In this document: positions 13,019-20,690 of the stretch, one piece after another
Layout of the letters: every line of letters starts with the position of its first letter
Position numbering within the stretch: position 1 is the first letter of the stretch
DNA from: a virus
Virus record (IMG/VR): IMGVR_UViG_3300034280_000394
Location: 1-23,813 of that record
Strand: one strand, 5' to 3'
DNA: 23,813 nucleotides
Position numbers and translations under genes: made by a program
The notes under the pieces: model-generated
The model's database searches: none
Seen by the model: the letters and a program-made list of their open reading frames with translations, nothing else
What the model was told of the DNA's origin: nothing

Positions 13019-13045
13019 GGCCGGGATTTCTCCCGGCCCTTTTTA
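13019..13045 (+). terminator. Strong intrinsic terminator of the replication operon
   Basis: GGCCGGGA (13019-13026), loop TTTC, TCCCGGCC (13031-13038), then CTTTTTATTT. A perfect 8-bp GC-rich stem with U-tract. It lies 82 bases after the last plus-strand gene and overlaps the stop codon of the minus-strand 22-residue gene by 3 bases, so it separates two convergent operons. Confidence 0.92.
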
Positions 13046-14636: not shown

Positions 14637-14843
14637 TTAAGCCTTCTCTTTGAACAGCCGAATGCCTGCGGCGAAATGCTTCAAAGCCTCCGCGTCTGCC
14701 AACTCGCAATGATTCTTCGGGTCCTCAAGGGACCTTGCAATTCCTTCAAGTTGGTCATTGTCGAGCAACCAAAGCTTTGCCGCCGCGTCAAATATTTGAT
14801 CGAATACGCGCTGGTCGAGTGCTGTGTGGCTATAAGTCCCCAT
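14637..14843 (-). CDS. 68-residue helical protein behind a structured leader
   Basis: From ATG 14843 with GGAGG 6 bases upstream: MGTYSHTALDQRVFDQIFDA, AKLWLLDNDQLEGIARSLED, ELADAEALKHFAAGIRLF. Three amphipathic helices, no recognised family. The hairpin leader with the repeated GC-rich box (14859-14898) sits directly before the ribosome site. Confidence 0.7.
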   Translation of the reverse strand: MGTYSHTALDQRVFDQIFDAAAKLWLLDNDQLEGIARSLEDPKNHCELADAEALKHFAAGIRLFKEKA

Positions 14844-14858
14844 TGTCTTCCTCCTTTT

Positions 14859-14898
14859 GGGCGGGCTTGCCCCCACGCCGCACCCCGTAGGATGCGGC
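14859..14898 (-). promoter_or_regulatory. Structured 5' leader with repeated GC box (copy 1)
   Basis: On the plus strand GGGCGGGCTTGCCCCCAC (14859-14876) is identical to 15716-15733. It is joined to a 9-bp hairpin GCCGCACCC (14877-14885) / GGATGCGGC (14890-14898) with a 4-base loop. The ribosome site of the 68-residue gene follows on the minus strand. The second copy has the same order, hairpin, GC box, GGAGG, start codon, but a different hairpin sequence, so the structure is conserved rather than the stem sequence. Likely a leader that stabilises the mRNA or controls the ribosome site. Confidence 0.6.
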
Positions 14899-14912
14899 GG
14901 AAGAGTTTCCCG

Positions 14913-15296
14913 CTATAGATACGCTTCAATCCAGTCCGCGATAGACTTGAATGACTTCCCGTCATCGTTGAGGTTCATAAGTCGTTCTTCAACATTGAAA
15001 GTATCACCGCCTTCGTTATCCAGAACTTCATACAACCAAGCCGGGCAGCTATTACTACTTGTAAGGCAGTCACGGGAATGATTGGTGAGTGATCTTCCGA
15101 ACACCCAACCAAGGTCATTGTCTCCAATCCATTTGCCTTTGGTGGAGCCGTCTTTGATCAGCAGATTTGCAGCCACACCAAGGCAGCAAAATTCGTCGTT
15201 GTCATTGACCAAACGCCCCGCACATTGGCGATACTCTCCGCTACGCAAGGCTTTGATCCATGCTTTTTTGAATGTCTTCCAAGACTTGAACTTCAT
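14913..15296 (-). CDS. Conserved phage protein (ALRSGEYRQ...FCCLGV type)
   Basis: 127 residues from ATG 15296 (a GTG lies just before it; AAGGAT is the ribosome site). KAWIKALRSGEYRQCAGRLV, EFCCLGVAANLL, then ERLMNLNDDGKSFKSIADWI is a well-known pattern in phage and bacterial small proteins: W-x-x-AL-R-S-G-x-Y-x-Q, FCCLGV and L-x-x-x-ND-x-G-x-SF-x-x-IA-x-[WY]-IE. Function unknown. The conserved Cys pair may bind metal or form a structural site. Confidence 0.8.
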   Translation of the reverse strand: MKFKSWKTFKKAWIKALRSGEYRQCAGRLVNDNDEFCCLGVAANLLIKDGSTKGKWIGDNDLGWVFGRSLTNHSRDCLTSSNSCPAWLYEVLDNEGGDTFNVEERLMNLNDDGKSFKSIADWIEAYL

Positions 15297-15488: not shown

Positions 15489-15701
15489 TTAGTTTGCCTT
15501 TACTTTAAAGTTTCTTGATGCGTTGAGGCCCTTTGTGGACCAAAGCTTATTAACTTCGTAGATCTCCCATTCGAATTTTTCGCCACGCTCCTCCCAATAT
15601 GTTTTCCGTCCAATGGCGTAGGTTGTGGCGTCTTTGTAGTTATCAAAAGCCTTTGTCCCCGGTCCATCCAGTCGAAGGCCAATCCTCACAACGTAGTACA
15701 T
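15489..15701 (-). CDS. MYYVVR small protein, paralogue A
   Basis: 70 residues: MYYVVRIGLRLDGPGTKAFD, NYKDATTYAIGRKTYWEERG, EWEIYEVNKLWSTKGL, ending in a basic tail. It is a tandem paralogue of 15302-15487. It is preceded by the second copy of the GC-box leader (15716-15761). The two genes are separated by a single base. Confidence 0.72.
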   Translation of the reverse strand: MYYVVRIGLRLDGPGTKAFDNYKDATTYAIGRKTYWEERGEKFEWEIYEVNKLWSTKGLNASRNFKVKAN

Positions 15702-15715
15702 TTCATTCCTCCTTC

Positions 15716-15761
15716 GGGCGGGCTTGCCCCCACTACACTGCGTTTACACAGTGTAGAGGGG
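15716..15761 (-). promoter_or_regulatory. Structured 5' leader with repeated GC box (copy 2)
   Basis: The 18-base box shared with 14859-14876 is followed by CTACACTG (15733-15740), an 8-base loop CGTTTACA and CAGTGTAG (15749-15756). An outer CCCC/GGGG pair (15728-15731 with 15758-15761) is split by one mismatch. The loop is exactly the dispersed TGTAAACG motif. GGAGG and the ATG of paralogue A follow on the minus strand. Confidence 0.65.
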
Positions 15762-15770
15762 AGTTTACCG

Positions 15771-15989
15771 TTAAACCTCTTTGCACCATGTTAGGCCGCG
15801 CGCTGCTGCCTCAAGTTCAAGTGCCTCTCGCAACAGTGGAGTGGTGATGTCTCCATCGATCCGATATGCGCGGAGTTCACCCTTGCCTGTTTTTTCGTCT
15901 CGCCATTCAGCCAGATCAATGGTCCATGATTTATCCTCGTGTGTCAGTAGGAATTCGCGGTCATGCCGTGTTTTCTTGAATGAAGTCAT
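15771..15989 (-). CDS. 72-residue protein, unknown function
   Basis: MTSFKKTRHDREFLLTHEDK, SWTIDLAEWRDEKTGKGELR, AYRIDGDITTPLLREALELE. Beta strands followed by an amphipathic C-terminal helix; soluble. AAGGAG ribosome site 8 bases before the ATG. First gene after the candidate promoter-operator at 16.0 kb. Not recognised. Confidence 0.7.
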   Translation of the reverse strand: MTSFKKTRHDREFLLTHEDKSWTIDLAEWRDEKTGKGELRAYRIDGDITTPLLREALELEAAARGLTWCKEV

Positions 15990-16008
15990 GTTGGCCTTCT
16001 CCTTTTGG

Positions 16009-16066
16009 GTTAACGTGCTGGTTGTAGCATTTATTGATTGTTAACGCAATGTGACAAGTTGTCGCA
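16009..16066 (-). promoter_or_regulatory. Candidate promoter with palindromic operator for the 13-16 kb minus operon
   Basis: TGTGACAA-G-TTGTCGCA (16050-16066) is an imperfect 17-base palindrome with 7 of 8 arm positions matching. On the minus strand TTGTCA inside it could be a -35, followed after 17 bases by ATAAAT as a -10. A TTGCGTTAAC / GTTAACCCAA pair (16037-16046 and 16009-16018 on the plus strand), like the arms of the leaders at 18.9-20.2 kb, flanks this region. The next gene on that strand starts at 15989. The upstream operon ends at the terminator 16117-16145, so a new promoter is expected here. Confidence 0.5.
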
Positions 16067-16116
16067 CCTCATTATTTATCAAAGCATGGTTGTTGGATAG
16101 GAAGCGGTTGATTTTA

Positions 16117-16145
16117 AAACCCCGAAAAGCCCCCCGGCGAGGGGC
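16117..16145 (-). terminator. Terminator after the DUF7192-like gene (repeat copy 1)
   Basis: On the minus strand GCCCC (16145-16141) pairs with GGGGC (16133-16129) across a 7-base loop, followed by TTTTCGGGGTTTTAAAA. About 30 bases here are nearly identical to 18323-18350. The element also contains one AAACCCCG motif. It lies 1 base after the stop of the gene at 16147. Confidence 0.75.
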
Positions 16146-17028: not shown

Positions 17029-18249
17029 TTAAGCAGCCTTGGCAATAACCTTGCCGCGCGTGTCGGCGTCAAGGCCCTTCCAGATCACGGCATCCTCTGC
17101 CTCCGCCCACGTAAAGCCTGCCGCCAGAAGGCGAGAGCCATTGACGGTGGCGCGGGGCGACACAACATGCCGCACCTTGAGTTCACTCACGGCACTCCGC
17201 ACCTTGCGAACCCGTTCCACCCACTGGAACGCAACCGCCTGCACACGCTCAGCCGGGAGAGGCTCGATAGACCGGGGAACAGGCGCACCCTTCGGTGCAT
17301 CCGCGCCAATCATCGCGGCCTCAAGAGCCTCGTCATATCCCCAGTCAAGCACCGCATAACGGTCAAGAGATGCAGCGTCTAGTTGATTGCGCCCAACATA
17401 TTGACGGTCTGCACCCGTGCCGAAAGTATTGGCCCCGGCGATCACGCGGAAGTCATCATGGCGCTTGATGTTCGCGTCAGGGAAGTCATACCAGTCATTG
17501 GCCAGAGCGCTGTTGAAGGCCAGCAGGGCACCCGGCAATGAGCCGTCGATCTCATCGAAAAGGAACACCCCGCCATGCTCGAAGGCCTTGCGGAATGCGG
17601 TTGAGATCACCCGGCCTTGAGCATCGATGAATCCCGAAAGTTTATATTCGGTATTAATTGCACCAGTGCCATAGAAGGGAAGGCCAAGCGCTTTGGCAAC
17701 TTGCGCTGCCGCCGTGGTCTTGCCGGAACCAGCAGGGCCGACAAGCATGATGTTTACACGCGCCGCAACAGCAGCAGCCAGCAGCGGAAACTTGTGGTGC
17801 ATAACGCTGTCACCTGAGAGCGTTACGCCCGGGGCCGTGAGGTCGATTGTGACATGTGCAGGCCGCGCCACATTGTCGCGGATCAATTCCAGAACCCGGC
17901 TCTCCGAAATGCCGCCGCCAAGCTTGCGAAGCAATTCGAGCAGCGCCGCTGCATTATCATCGATGCCATAGGGCACGGGGTTGACCAGCACGGGGGTTGT
18001 GGGGTTCATGATAGGGCTCTCCTCTTTTTCATTGGGCAATCCTTCCACAACCAACGTGCCATCCTTCACCATGCGGCGAAGATTACGGATTGCGGTGTTG
18101 ATCTTATCGGGCGGAATTGCGCATGAAAACGCAGTGCCATCATAGATGGCGGCTGCATTTTTTGGCCCAACGCCCGGTACGAACTTAACGTCAGAGATAA
18201 AGGCATCACGGTCACGAGCACCGCCACCACGGTGGATTGTTAAAATCAT
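17029..18249 (-). CDS. MoxR/CbbQ-family AAA+ ATPase
   Basis: 406 residues from ATG 18249 (AGGAG 7 bases upstream). A ~90-residue N-terminal part (TIHRGGGARDRDAFISDVKF, GPKNAAAIYDG) is followed by an AAA+ module: Walker A VGPAGSGKTTA (about 170-180), Walker B GGVFLFDEIDG (about 226-235), RVIAGANTFGTG as sensor 1, the insertion DRQYVGRNQLDAASLDRY (arginine finger region) and sensor 2 VVSPRATVNGSRLL. These match MoxR/CbbQ/GvpN ATPases, which with a VWA-type partner remodel or insert metal into target complexes. The downstream DUF7192-like gene is the expected partner. It is the largest gene of the minus accessory operon. Confidence 0.93.
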   Translation of the reverse strand: MILTIHRGGGARDRDAFISDVKFVPGVGPKNAAAIYDGTAFSCAIPPDKINTAIRNLRRMVKDGTLVVEGLPNEKEESPIMNPTTPVLVNPVPYGIDDNAAALLELLRKLGGGISESRVLELIRDNVARPAHVTIDLTAPGVTLSGDSVMHHKFPLLAAAVAARVNIMLVGPAGSGKTTAAAQVAKALGLPFYGTGAINTEYKLSGFIDAQGRVISTAFRKAFEHGGVFLFDEIDGSLPGALLAFNSALANDWYDFPDANIKRHDDFRVIAGANTFGTGADRQYVGRNQLDAASLDRYAVLDWGYDEALEAAMIGADAPKGAPVPRSIEPLPAERVQAVAFQWVERVRKVRSAVSELKVRHVVSPRATVNGSRLLAAGFTWAEAEDAVIWKGLDADTRGKVIAKAA

Positions 18250-18322
18250 TTTTGTTCTCCTCTTTTTTCCCCTCATAGGGTGCTTTGCGTTTACAGTCAA
18301 TCAATTATTCGAGGGAATTTTG

Positions 18323-18350
18323 AAACCCCGAAAAGCCCCCCGGCAAGGGG
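18323..18350 (-). terminator. Terminator after the SprT-like gene (repeat copy 2)
   Basis: Minus strand: CCCC (18350-18347), 7-base loop, GGGG (18339-18336), then a C and TTTTCGGGGTTTCAAAA. Nearly identical to 16117-16145. It starts 1 base after the stop of the gene at 18352, as the other copy does for its gene, so each long gene of this module is closed by the same terminator. Leader-like sequence for the ATPase gene (CTGTAAACGCAA on the minus strand, 18286-18297) follows. Confidence 0.75.
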
Positions 18351-18351
18351 A

Positions 18352-18951
18352 TTATTCATCCCCCTCATCCTCATCACCCTGCACAACCATTTCACAACCA
18401 GCCGGAGAGGTAGGAACCCCAAAGGCCAGCCACTTTTTGGTTGTCCGCACCGTGTAGCCCGTTTCGGGACAGACCAGCTTAATCATGCGGGTCGATTGTT
18501 TCTTGCGCTGCGATGGGTCAACCGCCGCATGGGGATAGTCACCCAGCATAGGCAGTACCTCAGCAGCAAGCCACTGCTTCAGTTCGGCACCCGGTAAGGC
18601 TTCGCTTGCCTTCCCTTCCAGTCCCACGGCGGCACAAAAGCGCTTGAATTCAGCACCATGCCCCGCCTCAATCCCCACGGAATGATGACCATATTCATGG
18701 GCCACAATCCCAAGCGCCAACATGGGATCATCCACCAAGGGGCTCACGAAAGTCTCATGATACCCAGCGGCACTAGCCATTTGAGATATAGCCTGCCCTA
18801 GAATTTTCTTTCCGCCGCGCGCTCCCATTGGAAAACCGCAGGCAATCTTAACGTTGGCCGGGAGAGAATAGCCTTGTTCCGTGAAGCGCTTGGCAATCAA
18901 TGCCAGAGCATGGGAGAGCCAGCCCTCGCGCGTATCGTGAAGTTGTTCCAT
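18352..18951 (-). CDS. SprT-like zincin protein with degenerate zinc ribbon
   Basis: 199 residues. GWLSHALALIAKRFTEQGYS, then NVKIACGFPMGARGGKKILG, then LALGIVAHEYGHHSVGIEAG and HGAEFKRF. H85-E86-x-x-H89 and H98 form an SprT/zincin zinc site. Phage proteins of this family often end in a C-x-x-C-GY ... C-x-C zinc ribbon. Here the ribbon region reads LVCPETGYTVRTTKKWLAFG and VPTSPAGCEM, with two of the expected four Cys missing, so the ribbon looks degenerate. The end is acidic (GDEDEGDE). A DNA-protein crosslink protease or a structural zincin is possible. It precedes the MoxR gene and shares its terminator type with the module. Confidence 0.85.
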   Translation of the reverse strand: MEQLHDTREGWLSHALALIAKRFTEQGYSLPANVKIACGFPMGARGGKKILGQAISQMASAAGYHETFVSPLVDDPMLALGIVAHEYGHHSVGIEAGHGAEFKRFCAAVGLEGKASEALPGAELKQWLAAEVLPMLGDYPHAAVDPSQRKKQSTRMIKLVCPETGYTVRTTKKWLAFGVPTSPAGCEMVVQGDEDEGDE

Positions 18952-18966
18952 TTTAGTTCTCCTGCG

Positions 18967-19014
18967 TTGCGTTAATTGATCCGGGCCAATAGCCCGGACT
19001 GATTACTGCACACA
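18967..19014 (-). promoter_or_regulatory. Hairpin leader element A (before SprT-like gene)
   Basis: Plus strand TTGCGTTAATTGA (18967 on) leads to TCCGGGC, loop CAATA-like, GCCCGGA and a divergent right arm TGATTACTGCAC. The TTAACGCAA arm lies 8 bases from the AGGAG of the gene at 18951. Same plan as elements B-D: TTGCG-arm, 6-8 bp GC stem, complementary arm. It overlaps the stop of the upstream gene. Confidence 0.6.
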
Positions 19015-19302
19015 TTTAAACAGGCGCGCAATTCTTTTCCGACTTGCGCTTGTTAATTTTTCAGGGAAATGCAATCCATAGTCCGTCATTTCACCAGTCC
19101 TGAAATCGCGTTCGCCATAGAATGTTAGCCAACGCGCGGCGCTTATGTCGCTGCAACTTGCTTCACAATAGCCGCCATGCCAGAGAAGGAAATTATAGGC
19201 GTCACGCAATGTTGCATCCTGCATTTCGAAGCCTGTTGCATCGAAGTCACCATGCGCGGCGCTTTCCTCAGTTGTGATTGAAAAAGTTATGTTGAATTTC
19301 AT
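19003..19302 (-). CDS. 99-residue conserved phage protein, unknown function
   Basis: MKFNITFSITTEESAAHGDF, ATGFEMQDATLRDAYNFLLW, CEASCSDISAARWLTFYGER, GEMTDYGLHFPEKLTSASRK. Beta-strand start and a W-L-T-F-Y ... G-L-H-x-P-x-x-x-T-x-[SA]-S-R-x-R-I pattern that recurs in small phage proteins. No enzyme motif. Its start lies inside the 3' end of the upstream zinc-finger gene (35-base overlap). Confidence 0.72.
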   Translation of the reverse strand: MKFNITFSITTEESAAHGDFDATGFEMQDATLRDAYNFLLWHGGYCEASCSDISAARWLTFYGERDFRTGEMTDYGLHFPEKLTSASRKRIARLFKCVQ

Positions 19303-19483
19303 TTTTTGCCCCGTTTATTCTGTTGATAAGTTCAAGTGTTTCAGATTCGCGCCTGTTTACCGCGCATTGACCATGCGTAGTGAATAGCTTGATGTAGTCC
19401 TCGGGTTCCCCGCCATACTTTTTGGCCCGCTCTTTTGCTGACGGCGCAAGAACAACTGGTTTATTGCAAATTTTGCATAGCAT
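19268..19483 (-). CDS. Small zinc-finger phage protein (CxxC...HxxC)
   Basis: 71 residues from ATG 19483, AGGAAAGG 8 bases before. MLCKICNKPVVLAPSAKERA, then KKYGGEPEDYIKLFTTHGQC, then NRRESETLELI. C3-x-x-C6 and H37-x-x-C40 form a probable zinc site. The P-S-A-x-E-R-A-x-[KR]-x-GG-x-P-x-DY-x-x-LF-x-x-H-x-x-C pattern is a frequent phage family of unknown role. The leader element B lies directly upstream. Confidence 0.78.
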   Translation of the reverse strand: MLCKICNKPVVLAPSAKERAKKYGGEPEDYIKLFTTHGQCAVNRRESETLELINRINGAKNEIQHNFFNHN

Positions 19484-19501
19484 TGTGTAAGCCTTTCCTG
19501 A

Positions 19502-19554
19502 TTTGCGTCTATTGAGCCTGTTGCGTGTAAACAACAGGCCTTATAGCTGCAACT
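19502..19554 (-). promoter_or_regulatory. Hairpin leader element B (before zinc-finger gene)
   Basis: TTGCGTCTATTGA then GCCTGTTG (19516-19523), loop CGTGTAAA, CAACAGGC (19532-19539) and the right arm CTTATAGCTGCAAC. Stem is a perfect 8 bp and the loop again carries the TGTAAA motif. AGGAAAGG of the gene at 19483 follows on the minus strand. The right arm overlaps the stop of the upstream gene. Confidence 0.65.
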
Positions 19555-19846
19555 AAAGCGTCACTACGTCATCAGAACATATTTCATCAGAGCCGAAATA
19601 TTGGACATGATTTTTCTGGCCAAACATTGCGCTCCTGCCCATGAGGCGAGTCAATGTGTTGAGCCTGTCCCTAGTTGTGACGGTTCCCCATCCTGCCATT
19701 GTCGCCGAGATTGTCCCGTCTTCATTGTGCCATGCAATCTTATTCCCATGTAGGAACATGGCCTTGCCATCCGTGTGAGTTCTCGCGGCCTTTGCTTCCC
19801 GCTTTGAAAGGAAGGCCTTTGCAATCTTAACGCTCTCTTTACGCAT
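19553..19846 (-). CDS. 97-residue conserved phage protein, unknown function
   Basis: MRKESVKIAKAFLSKREAKA, ARTHTDGKAMFLHGNKIAWH, NEDGTISATMAGWGTVTTRD, RLNTLTRLMG. The run T-x-T-D-G-x-x-x-x-LHGN-x-IA ... AGW-x-T-x-T-[TR]-x-RLN-x-L is a conserved phage family; the small beta domain may bind nucleic acid but no function is shown. TAGGAGAG ribosome site, with leader element C upstream. Confidence 0.78.
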   Translation of the reverse strand: MRKESVKIAKAFLSKREAKAARTHTDGKAMFLHGNKIAWHNEDGTISATMAGWGTVTTRDRLNTLTRLMGRSAMFGQKNHVQYFGSDEICSDDVVTL

Positions 19847-19863
19847 CTTTTCTCTCCTATAAG

Positions 19864-19910
19864 TTGCGTTTAATGAGCAAGCGCGCTTGGCGCTTGCCTG
19901 TTAATCGCAA
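19864..19910 (-). promoter_or_regulatory. Hairpin leader element C (before 97-residue gene)
   Basis: TTGCGTTTAATGA, GCAAGCG (19877-19883), 7-base loop, CGCTTGC (19891-19897), then CTGTTAATCGCAA. The outer arms TTGCG-x-TTAA and TTAA-x-CGCAA are inverted repeats of each other. TAGGAG of the gene at 19846 lies a few bases downstream on the minus strand. Confidence 0.65.
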
Positions 19911-20090
19911 TTATGAATTGTGGATTACGCGGATTCCCTTCATCACTTTGTTTGCGCTTGTTAGATCATTTTTAATGCGGGCGGAAATGTACTCTTTTGC
20001 GAATAGTTCATTTATTGCCAGTCCTTTGAACGATTCAATTTGCCATTGATCGTTCTTCTGTACGTGAGATTCGTGCATTGCCTTGATCAT
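19911..20090 (-). CDS. 59-residue protein, unknown function
   Basis: ATG 20090 to TAA 19911. MIKAMHESHVQKNDQWQIES, FKGLAINELFAKEYISARIK, NDLTSANKVMKGIRVIHNS. Amphipathic helices with a basic tail. It sits exactly between two leader elements (D before, C after) and has AAGGT 9 bases upstream, so it follows the same plan as its neighbours. No family recognised. Confidence 0.65.
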   Translation of the reverse strand: MIKAMHESHVQKNDQWQIESFKGLAINELFAKEYISARIKNDLTSANKVMKGIRVIHNS

Positions 20091-20109
20091 TTGTTTTACC
20101 TTTTTTAAG

Positions 20110-20158
20110 TTGCGTTAATCGAACAAGCCGCATGTAAACGGCTTGTTTGTTAGCGCAA
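20110..20158 (-). promoter_or_regulatory. Hairpin leader element D (before 59-residue gene)
   Basis: TTGCGTTAATCGA, ACAAGCCG (20123-20130), loop CATGTAAA, CGGCTTGT (20139-20146), TTGTTAGCGCAA. Perfect 8-bp stem; including the outer arms nearly 20 bases per side can pair. The loop holds TGTAAA as in element B and in the GC-box leader at 15741. Confidence 0.7.
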
Positions 20159-20404
20159 TCTTTTCCCATGCAATCAATCCGATATCGTCCTGAACCTTCG
20201 GTTGATGTCGGCCCGTCATTTGTGCCGCATATCAATTGCATTCCCGATAGACGGGCTTGGGGAACGAAAAGCGGACGGTGGGGCTTTTGCCTTACGGACG
20301 CCGATCTAATCGCCCGCTTTCGTTTGCCGCGTTGTTAGGGTGTCGCGATCACCGTGACCAAACATTGCCCGGCCTCGTTTGCCGTGTAAACAATTATTTT
20401 CAGT

Positions 20405-20495
20405 CCAATGATTTCAATGGCTTAGCAATGCGGGAATTCAGGAAAACAGGCGAAATTCACTGGAAAATAGCATGTGATTCCCCAATGATTTCAAT
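20405..20495 (-). repeat. 14-base direct repeat that interrupts a small reading frame
   Basis: CCAATGATTTCAAT occurs exactly at 20405-20418 and 20482-20495, 77 bases apart. On the minus strand the frame before it reads ANHWQVIEIIG and is then closed by a stop. After the second repeat the frame reads IEIIGLKIIVYTANEAGQC and on to TVIATP and stop. Removing one repeat unit with its 77 bases would join both into one open frame of about 44 residues. This looks like a small gene broken by a repeat-flanked insertion. Confidence 0.4.
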
Positions 20496-20554
20496 AACTT
20501 GCCAGTGATTCGCGGCGCTTTGGGCGTGAAGCAGTGTAAACGACACTCAATTCA

Positions 20555-20589
20555 ACGCATAGCTGGTATGCAATAAGCGCATAGCTATG
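20555..20589. promoter_or_regulatory. Tandem palindromes, candidate operators (copy 2)
   Basis: ACGCATAGCTGGTATGCAA (20555-20573) matches 7870-7888 at 18 of 19 positions. It is followed after 6 bases by the palindrome CATAGCTATG (20580-20589). The pair lies about 100 bases upstream of the terminase gene, where a late-operon operator would be expected. Confidence 0.55.
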
Positions 20590-20690
20590 GGATATGTGTG
20601 AGGAAATGTTACAATTGGACATAACCATAAGGGGAAGCAATTTTTGAGACCCCGGAAAGAGCCGCCCGGCGTTTGAGGGGATAAGAGCCC

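Follow-up and report, generated by a model that had tools for sequence, protein, structure and literature searches.

Genes and hairpin leaders of the window

The window, by which we mean the whole stretch of DNA analysed (23,813 bases), is an IMG/VR virus fragment and is itself a piece of a virus genome. It encodes tailed-phage functions, namely an integrase, a primase-helicase, a small terminase subunit, a SprT-like protease and a CobS-like AAA ATPase, and from ~20.1 kb down to 13.1 kb its genes are carried by the minus strand. The close relatives were all metagenomic contigs (L001, L002, L006, L007, L009/L040, L017 and L018); none of 50,697 named phages proved to be a near relative, and a protein search for prophages in genome contigs gave no match. 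The minus-strand run opens with a 59-aa gene (19911–20090) that has no assigned function and is missing from L002. It is followed by a 97-aa gene (19553–19846; PHROG 554 / Kyanoviridae Gp96-like), a 71–72 aa gene (19268–19486; PHROG 8738), a 99-aa gene (19003–19302) that overlaps the gene at 19268–19486 and has no leader of its own, and a gene for a 199-aa SprT-like metalloprotease homologue (18352–18951; PHROG 6361).

Four of these genes are preceded by a hairpin leader of the type that we have designated family A, each recognised by its fold and by a match to a covariance model. The leader of gene 19911–20090 (20109–20159) has the layout attgcg c taa ca AACAAGCCG tttacatg CGGCTTGTT cga tta a cgcaac, with a weak Shine-Dalgarno sequence 6 nt downstream. 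That of gene 19553–19846 (19863–19911) has its first base on the TAA stop of the upstream gene, that of gene 19268–19486 (19502–19553) begins on the TAG stop of gene 19553–19846 and has the inner arm CTAT/ATAG, and in that of the SprT-like gene (18966–19013) the TAA stop of the upstream gene lies inside the 5′ arm. All four are on the minus strand at the places where an initial annotation had put them. The four window hairpins are real and well above chance: for each, all 200 dinucleotide shuffles folded less well (z −4.3 to −5.7), and a two-tier hairpin descriptor gave 0.8 chance matches per shuffled 24-kb window, compared with four leaders within 1.2 kb. The initial annotation had a leader before each small gene; small genes are indeed preceded by them, but gene 19003–19302 lacks one and the long gene 18352–18951 has one.

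A family A element is ~47–52 nt long and in the window lies on the gene (minus) strand. Its lower stem is UUGCG/CGCAA, above which there is a 1x1 mismatch whose 3′ base is A except in one degenerate copy. The adjoining inner stem is of 4 bp (3 bp at 20109) and covaries, reading TTAA/TTAA, CTAT/ATAG, TAAT/ATTA and TAA/TTA in the window copies, so that the fixed TTGCG-x-TTAAT arm of the initial annotation does not hold. A small internal loop, typically CA/CA, separates the inner stem from an upper stem of 8–11 bp that is free in sequence, and the terminal loop comes in two sizes, 8 nt with the sequence TKTAMAYG and about 5 nt; TKTAMAYG is common to the 8-nt loops, which sit on unrelated stems. 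The height of the hairpin is ~20–22 layers in nearly all copies. The internal-loop bases and the 3′ arm, the latter the more conserved, contain C, A and ACGCAA that are nearly invariant beside the sequence-free stem.

The related arms that the initial annotation had listed at 16009–16046, 18286–18297 and 20525–20565 proved not to be degenerate leaders. None was matched by the model, on which the rejection of the 20525 site rests, and the first two folded poorly (16000–16050, z −1.1; 18265–18330, z +0.9). The arm-like palindrome before gene 15771–15989 (16005–16049, minus strand) lacks a stable upper stem and is not family A. The 18286–18297 site probably serves as promoter for the AAA ATPase gene (17029–18249): a putative sigma-70-type promoter, TTGACT-N17-TATGAG, with a modest promoter score, was placed at 18267–18295 (minus strand), and TTGACN-N17 occurs at the matching position in L001, L002 and L006. 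This site comes after a terminator; by inspection, a probable intrinsic terminator, CCCCTTGCCGGGGGGCTTTTCGGGGTTT, follows the SprT-like gene (18313–18350, minus strand), and the relatives have clear terminators at the equivalent place. An integron attC reading (core boxes RYYYAAC / GTTRRRY) was also rejected by inspection, as the 3′ arms CAATTAACGCAA, AATAGACGCAA, GTGAACGCAA and similar ones contain no GTTRRRY.

Other features of the window were recorded alongside. The divergent intergenic DNA of ~500 bp that lies ahead of both the terminase and the leader operon (20160–20690) is unusually conserved, with ~300 bases identical to L002, and probably contains promoters, operators or an origin. 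A hairpin between convergent gene blocks (13019–13038; GGCCGGGA-TTTC-TCCCGGCC), conserved in L001, L002 and L007, is probably a two-way terminator. TGTAAAC (GTGTAAACG) is the most over-represented 7-mer of the clade formed by the window, L001, L002, L006, L007, L017 and L018 (22 seen in the window, 1.7 expected). It occurs on both strands, in coding and non-coding DNA, and is kept within the AAA gene of the relatives as a rare Val codon; a general placement in hairpin loops was rejected, since among 85 sites few lie in a loop apart from those of the leader copies. AGTGCCG is likewise strongly over-represented in the window (24 sites, 2.5 expected) and weakly so in the relatives.

Pairing and position of family A across relatives

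A covariance model, R2, was built from four family A copies. It recovered the other two window copies together with all copies in L002, L006, L018 and L040, matched L001 weakly (E 0.48), missed the degenerate copy of L007 and found a new copy in L048 (E = 2e-7), a phage found only through the second leader family described below. The model thus returned copies in the window, in the relatives and in one further phage, and family A is known from eight contigs only. Exact arm patterns in IMG/VR returned the same clade plus chance matches and nothing else. No Rfam 15 covariance model gave a gathering-level match overlapping any leader; the overlaps seen were at chance level, one L002 copy being overlapped on its antisense strand by mir-4018 (E 0.71) and L040:13343–13363 by CRISPR-DR36 (E 0.23). 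A literature search for such hairpins and their sequence found no published account.

The 14 sense copies carry 13 distinct upper-stem sequences and share sequence in the outer arms alone, and 96% of their cells were paired, compared with 75% (maximum 80%) when partners were shuffled. They showed 44 two-sided changes (shuffle maximum 19). The 10 copies outside model building gave the same 96%, against 77% shuffled. Pairing dropped to 21–41% in slid controls, a set that includes antisense rows and one chance match, and exchange of inner stems between copies left only 58% paired. As a MAFFT alignment of all copies places the upper-stem gaps wrongly, these statistics were taken from hand segmentation and a model-based alignment. 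Because most copies were found through the stem plus the 3′ arm, perfect upper stems partly reflect the way in which the copies were chosen; the inner stem, the orthologous leaders of the SprT-like gene and the comparison of the window with L002 are outside this bias. In the last of these, ~400 aligned intergenic bases running through leader 20109–20159 contain three differences, all in the hairpin, being a C-G to T-A change across the upper stem (a compensatory pair) and one loop base. A leader-type hairpin lies ahead of the SprT-like gene in 6/6 relatives with a readable start, that of L007 being a degenerate copy, and the stem usually differs between relatives. The proposal in the initial annotation that stems differ, pairing is kept and the structure is under selection is therefore strongly supported by the relatives, and in close relatives with intact genes the pairing was found to be kept.

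With respect to the neighbouring genes, in 9/12 copies that have an upstream gene the stop codon of that gene lies between −3 and +8 nt relative to the first leader base, and an unpaired Shine-Dalgarno sequence begins 0–8 nt past the last leader base, so the leader fills the gap between cistrons. In the window copies this last distance is 2–6 nt, which corrects the 5–10 bases of the initial annotation. Within one stretch almost all uncoupled genes carry a copy, and the downstream genes are unrelated (PHROGs 6361, 554, 8738, 2554 and 1617). The leader belongs to the downstream gene, because the SprT-like gene retains it in relatives despite differing upstream genes and because the first-position copies (20109, L006 and L040) have no upstream gene. 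Fold energy did not tell the two strands apart. Wobbles in the upper stem, at its base and at the T...G ends of the 8-nt loops, are G-U on the gene strand and A-C on the other. The lower stem and internal loops depart from pairing mostly through A-C as read on the gene strand, equivalent to G-U on the opposite strand, and since these departures point the other way the strand argument rests on the upper stem.

A second leader family in at least ten phages

Further down the same strand, the gene at 15489–15701 is preceded by a leader (15714–15771) with the layout (CGG)UAAACUCCCC CUACACUG uguaaacg CAGUGUAG UGGGGGCAAGCCCGCCC, then a Shine-Dalgarno sequence. The gene starting at 14843 is preceded by another (14857–14913, minus strand) that reads CGGGAAACUCUUCC CGCCGCAUC cuac GGGGUGCGGCG UGGGGGCAAGCCCGCCC. 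These define family B, the core of which is GGGAAACUCUUCC, a 9-bp free stem and GUGGGGGCAA(G/U)CCCGCCC, followed by the Shine-Dalgarno sequence. An exact scan of IMG/VR with this core returned 17 contigs, 17/17 having the hairpin and a start codon after it. In 16 copies 98.8% of cells pair, and every wobble is U-G when read on the gene strand; the covariation score is 0.55, compared with 0.20 +/- 0.02 for shuffles. Family B is unrelated to family A, has the same plan and covaries independently.

Family B was present in at least ten different phages (the window, L067, L043, L045, L046, L048, L049, L050, L052, L054 and L055). L067, a Rhizobiales metagenome contig, has five copies in a row over 2.4 kb (L067:3026–5445), before five genes, and its leaders typically begin on the stop codon (UAGGGAAACUC). 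Both families occur together in L048. The family B core had no match in Rfam 15, and a literature search for the core sequence was without result. Both leader-RNA families are apparently undescribed so far. More tentatively, and at odds that we put below even, phages, some of them probably of Alphaproteobacteria, may use at least two unrelated and undescribed leader-RNA families that run from stop codon to ribosome site before successive unrelated small genes and combine a sequence-free clamp with a conserved core. Such an arrangement would amount to a common strategy among phages, with a single nuclease or RNA-binding protein acting on many genes by way of RNA modules.

Interpretation of the leaders and comparison with known systems

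We favour the reading of family A elements as intercistronic leader RNAs through which the message of the downstream gene is controlled or processed, by RNase III-like cutting or a bound protein, and give it a probability of roughly 0.55. The structure, covariation, position and association with the downstream gene are observed; recognition and function are what we infer from them. The elements would be leaders within the polycistronic message of an uncultured phage, running from the upstream stop to just before the Shine-Dalgarno sequence. Recognition of the mRNA hairpin, either by a nuclease of RNase III type or by an RNA-binding protein reading the internal loop and the 3′ arm, would cut or shield the message at each gene boundary. 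The message of each downstream gene would then begin with a short unstructured 5′ end of its own that leaves the ribosome site exposed, unrelated accessory genes would be expressed as one set, and some exchange of genes at the arms could be a by-product. That the leaders lie behind a stop codon and ahead of an exposed ribosome site indicates mRNA, and the occurrence of a second family with the same plan and independent covariation is a point for an RNA leader. RNase III-type processing fits the shape and position of the leaders by analogy, as they present about two turns of irregular duplex (~20–22 layers) between cistrons. Sequence conservation of the 3′ arm, which RNase III does not need, is a counterpoint.

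Processing or insulation at gene boundaries is favoured from sequence features that do not separate it from protein-dependent control of translation. A credible if less probable alternative is a translational leader that is not cut: an RNA-binding protein of phage or host origin would recognise its internal loop and 3′ arm and thereby increase or prevent translation across a regulon of small genes. The conservation of just these bases next to a sequence-free clamp stem agrees with it, as do the TKTAMAYG loops on unrelated stems and the way in which the leader tracks the downstream gene whatever lies upstream. There is, however, no candidate protein, the Shine-Dalgarno sequence is not sequestered in the predicted folds, and 5-nt loops without the motif occur too.

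A DNA element is unlikely, whether as an operator, a binding site for an activator, or a promoter with inverted half-sites of the sort suggested for ESAS. Inverted arms immediately before the start codons of non-structural genes do resemble ESAS (PMC3203893), and TGTAAAC, present in some loops, is a DNA word over-represented genome-wide in the clade. However, the upper stem pairs perfectly whatever its sequence, and the inner arms vary among neighbouring copies of one genome yet remain complementary, which likewise disfavours the sites for a protein that turns on each gene, offered in the initial annotation, if these are taken as DNA operators. The copies also sit between stop and start codons within gene runs. 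The best sigma-70 pair score was at or below the shuffled mean in all four window leaders, so that 0/4 exceed expectation, and was slightly above it in a few copies of the relatives. With stems that are free in sequence, a DNA operator is excluded as the primary interpretation and a folded strand is indicated.

That the elements are recombination linkers, short border homologies for the swapping of small genes with no regulatory role for the hairpin, is improbable. Gene 19911–20090 was lost from L002 by a ~225 bp deletion (against L002:1534–1601) that ends in CGCAACTTA, shared by the 3′ arms of two leaders; near-identical leaders precede unrelated genes in the window (19863–19911) and L006 (7151–7199); and similar deletions occur at the cluster O repeats (PMC4351075). 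Linkers would nevertheless be expected to conserve sequence and not pairing with replaced stems, and the SprT-like gene holds its leader across relatives with little common stem sequence. An intrinsic terminator or attenuator is very improbable even though stable GC-rich hairpins lie between genes, as the conserved 3′ arm and no U-tract follows every copy, separate terminators exist at 18313–18350 and 16111–16144, and first-position copies have no gene upstream. With no U-tract, and with no promoter boxes in the copies of the window, terminators are excluded and promoters are unlikely, and the terminator-antiterminator leader suggested initially is further opposed by the lack of a competing structure and by a copy before nearly every uncoupled gene.

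For most small phage genes function and control are not known, and a leader recurring before unrelated genes marks one regulated set and is a handle for finding its regulator. Rfam lacks both leader families, which would be two additions to the known RNA families, and further copies of either can be sought directly with the covariance models R1 and R2.

In shape, the nearest known structures to family A are the RNase III processing sites of T7 early mRNA, irregular hairpins between cistrons in which an internal loop splits lower and upper stem near the next ribosome site. Folding of the T7 region here gave such hairpins before genes 1 and 1.3. Unlike these, family A has a sequence-conserved 3′ arm and internal loop, and a copy at nearly every uncoupled gene. 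The REP/BIME sequences of enterobacteria are intercistronic hairpins too, but are mobile elements of conserved sequence whose action is on the upstream message; family A shares with them the hairpin directly after the stop codon, whereas its leaders go with the downstream gene.

Actinobacteriophages have inverted repeats of 18 bp (cluster EG) and 17 bp (cluster O) in short intergenic gaps, with deletions by recombination between the cluster O copies (PMC7302621, PMC4351075). Unlike family A these are fixed-sequence palindromes, and cluster O copies also lie within genes. In position, the nearest published analogue is the ESAS of cluster K mycobacteriophages, the function of which is also not known, consisting of spaced inverted repeats just before the ribosome sites of some non-structural genes (PMC3203893, PMC11373665). 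Its arms have a conserved 17-bp sequence in each subcluster, are tied to a 13-bp SAS (GGGATAGGAGCCC) and contain SigA-like −35/−10 boxes (PMC3203893, PMC11373665). The upper stem of family A is sequence-free where ESAS has its 17-bp repeat, the spacers between leader and ATG have no GGGATAGGAGCCC-like sequence, and the window copies have no SigA-like −35/−10 pair; for these three reasons the elements are set apart from ESAS.
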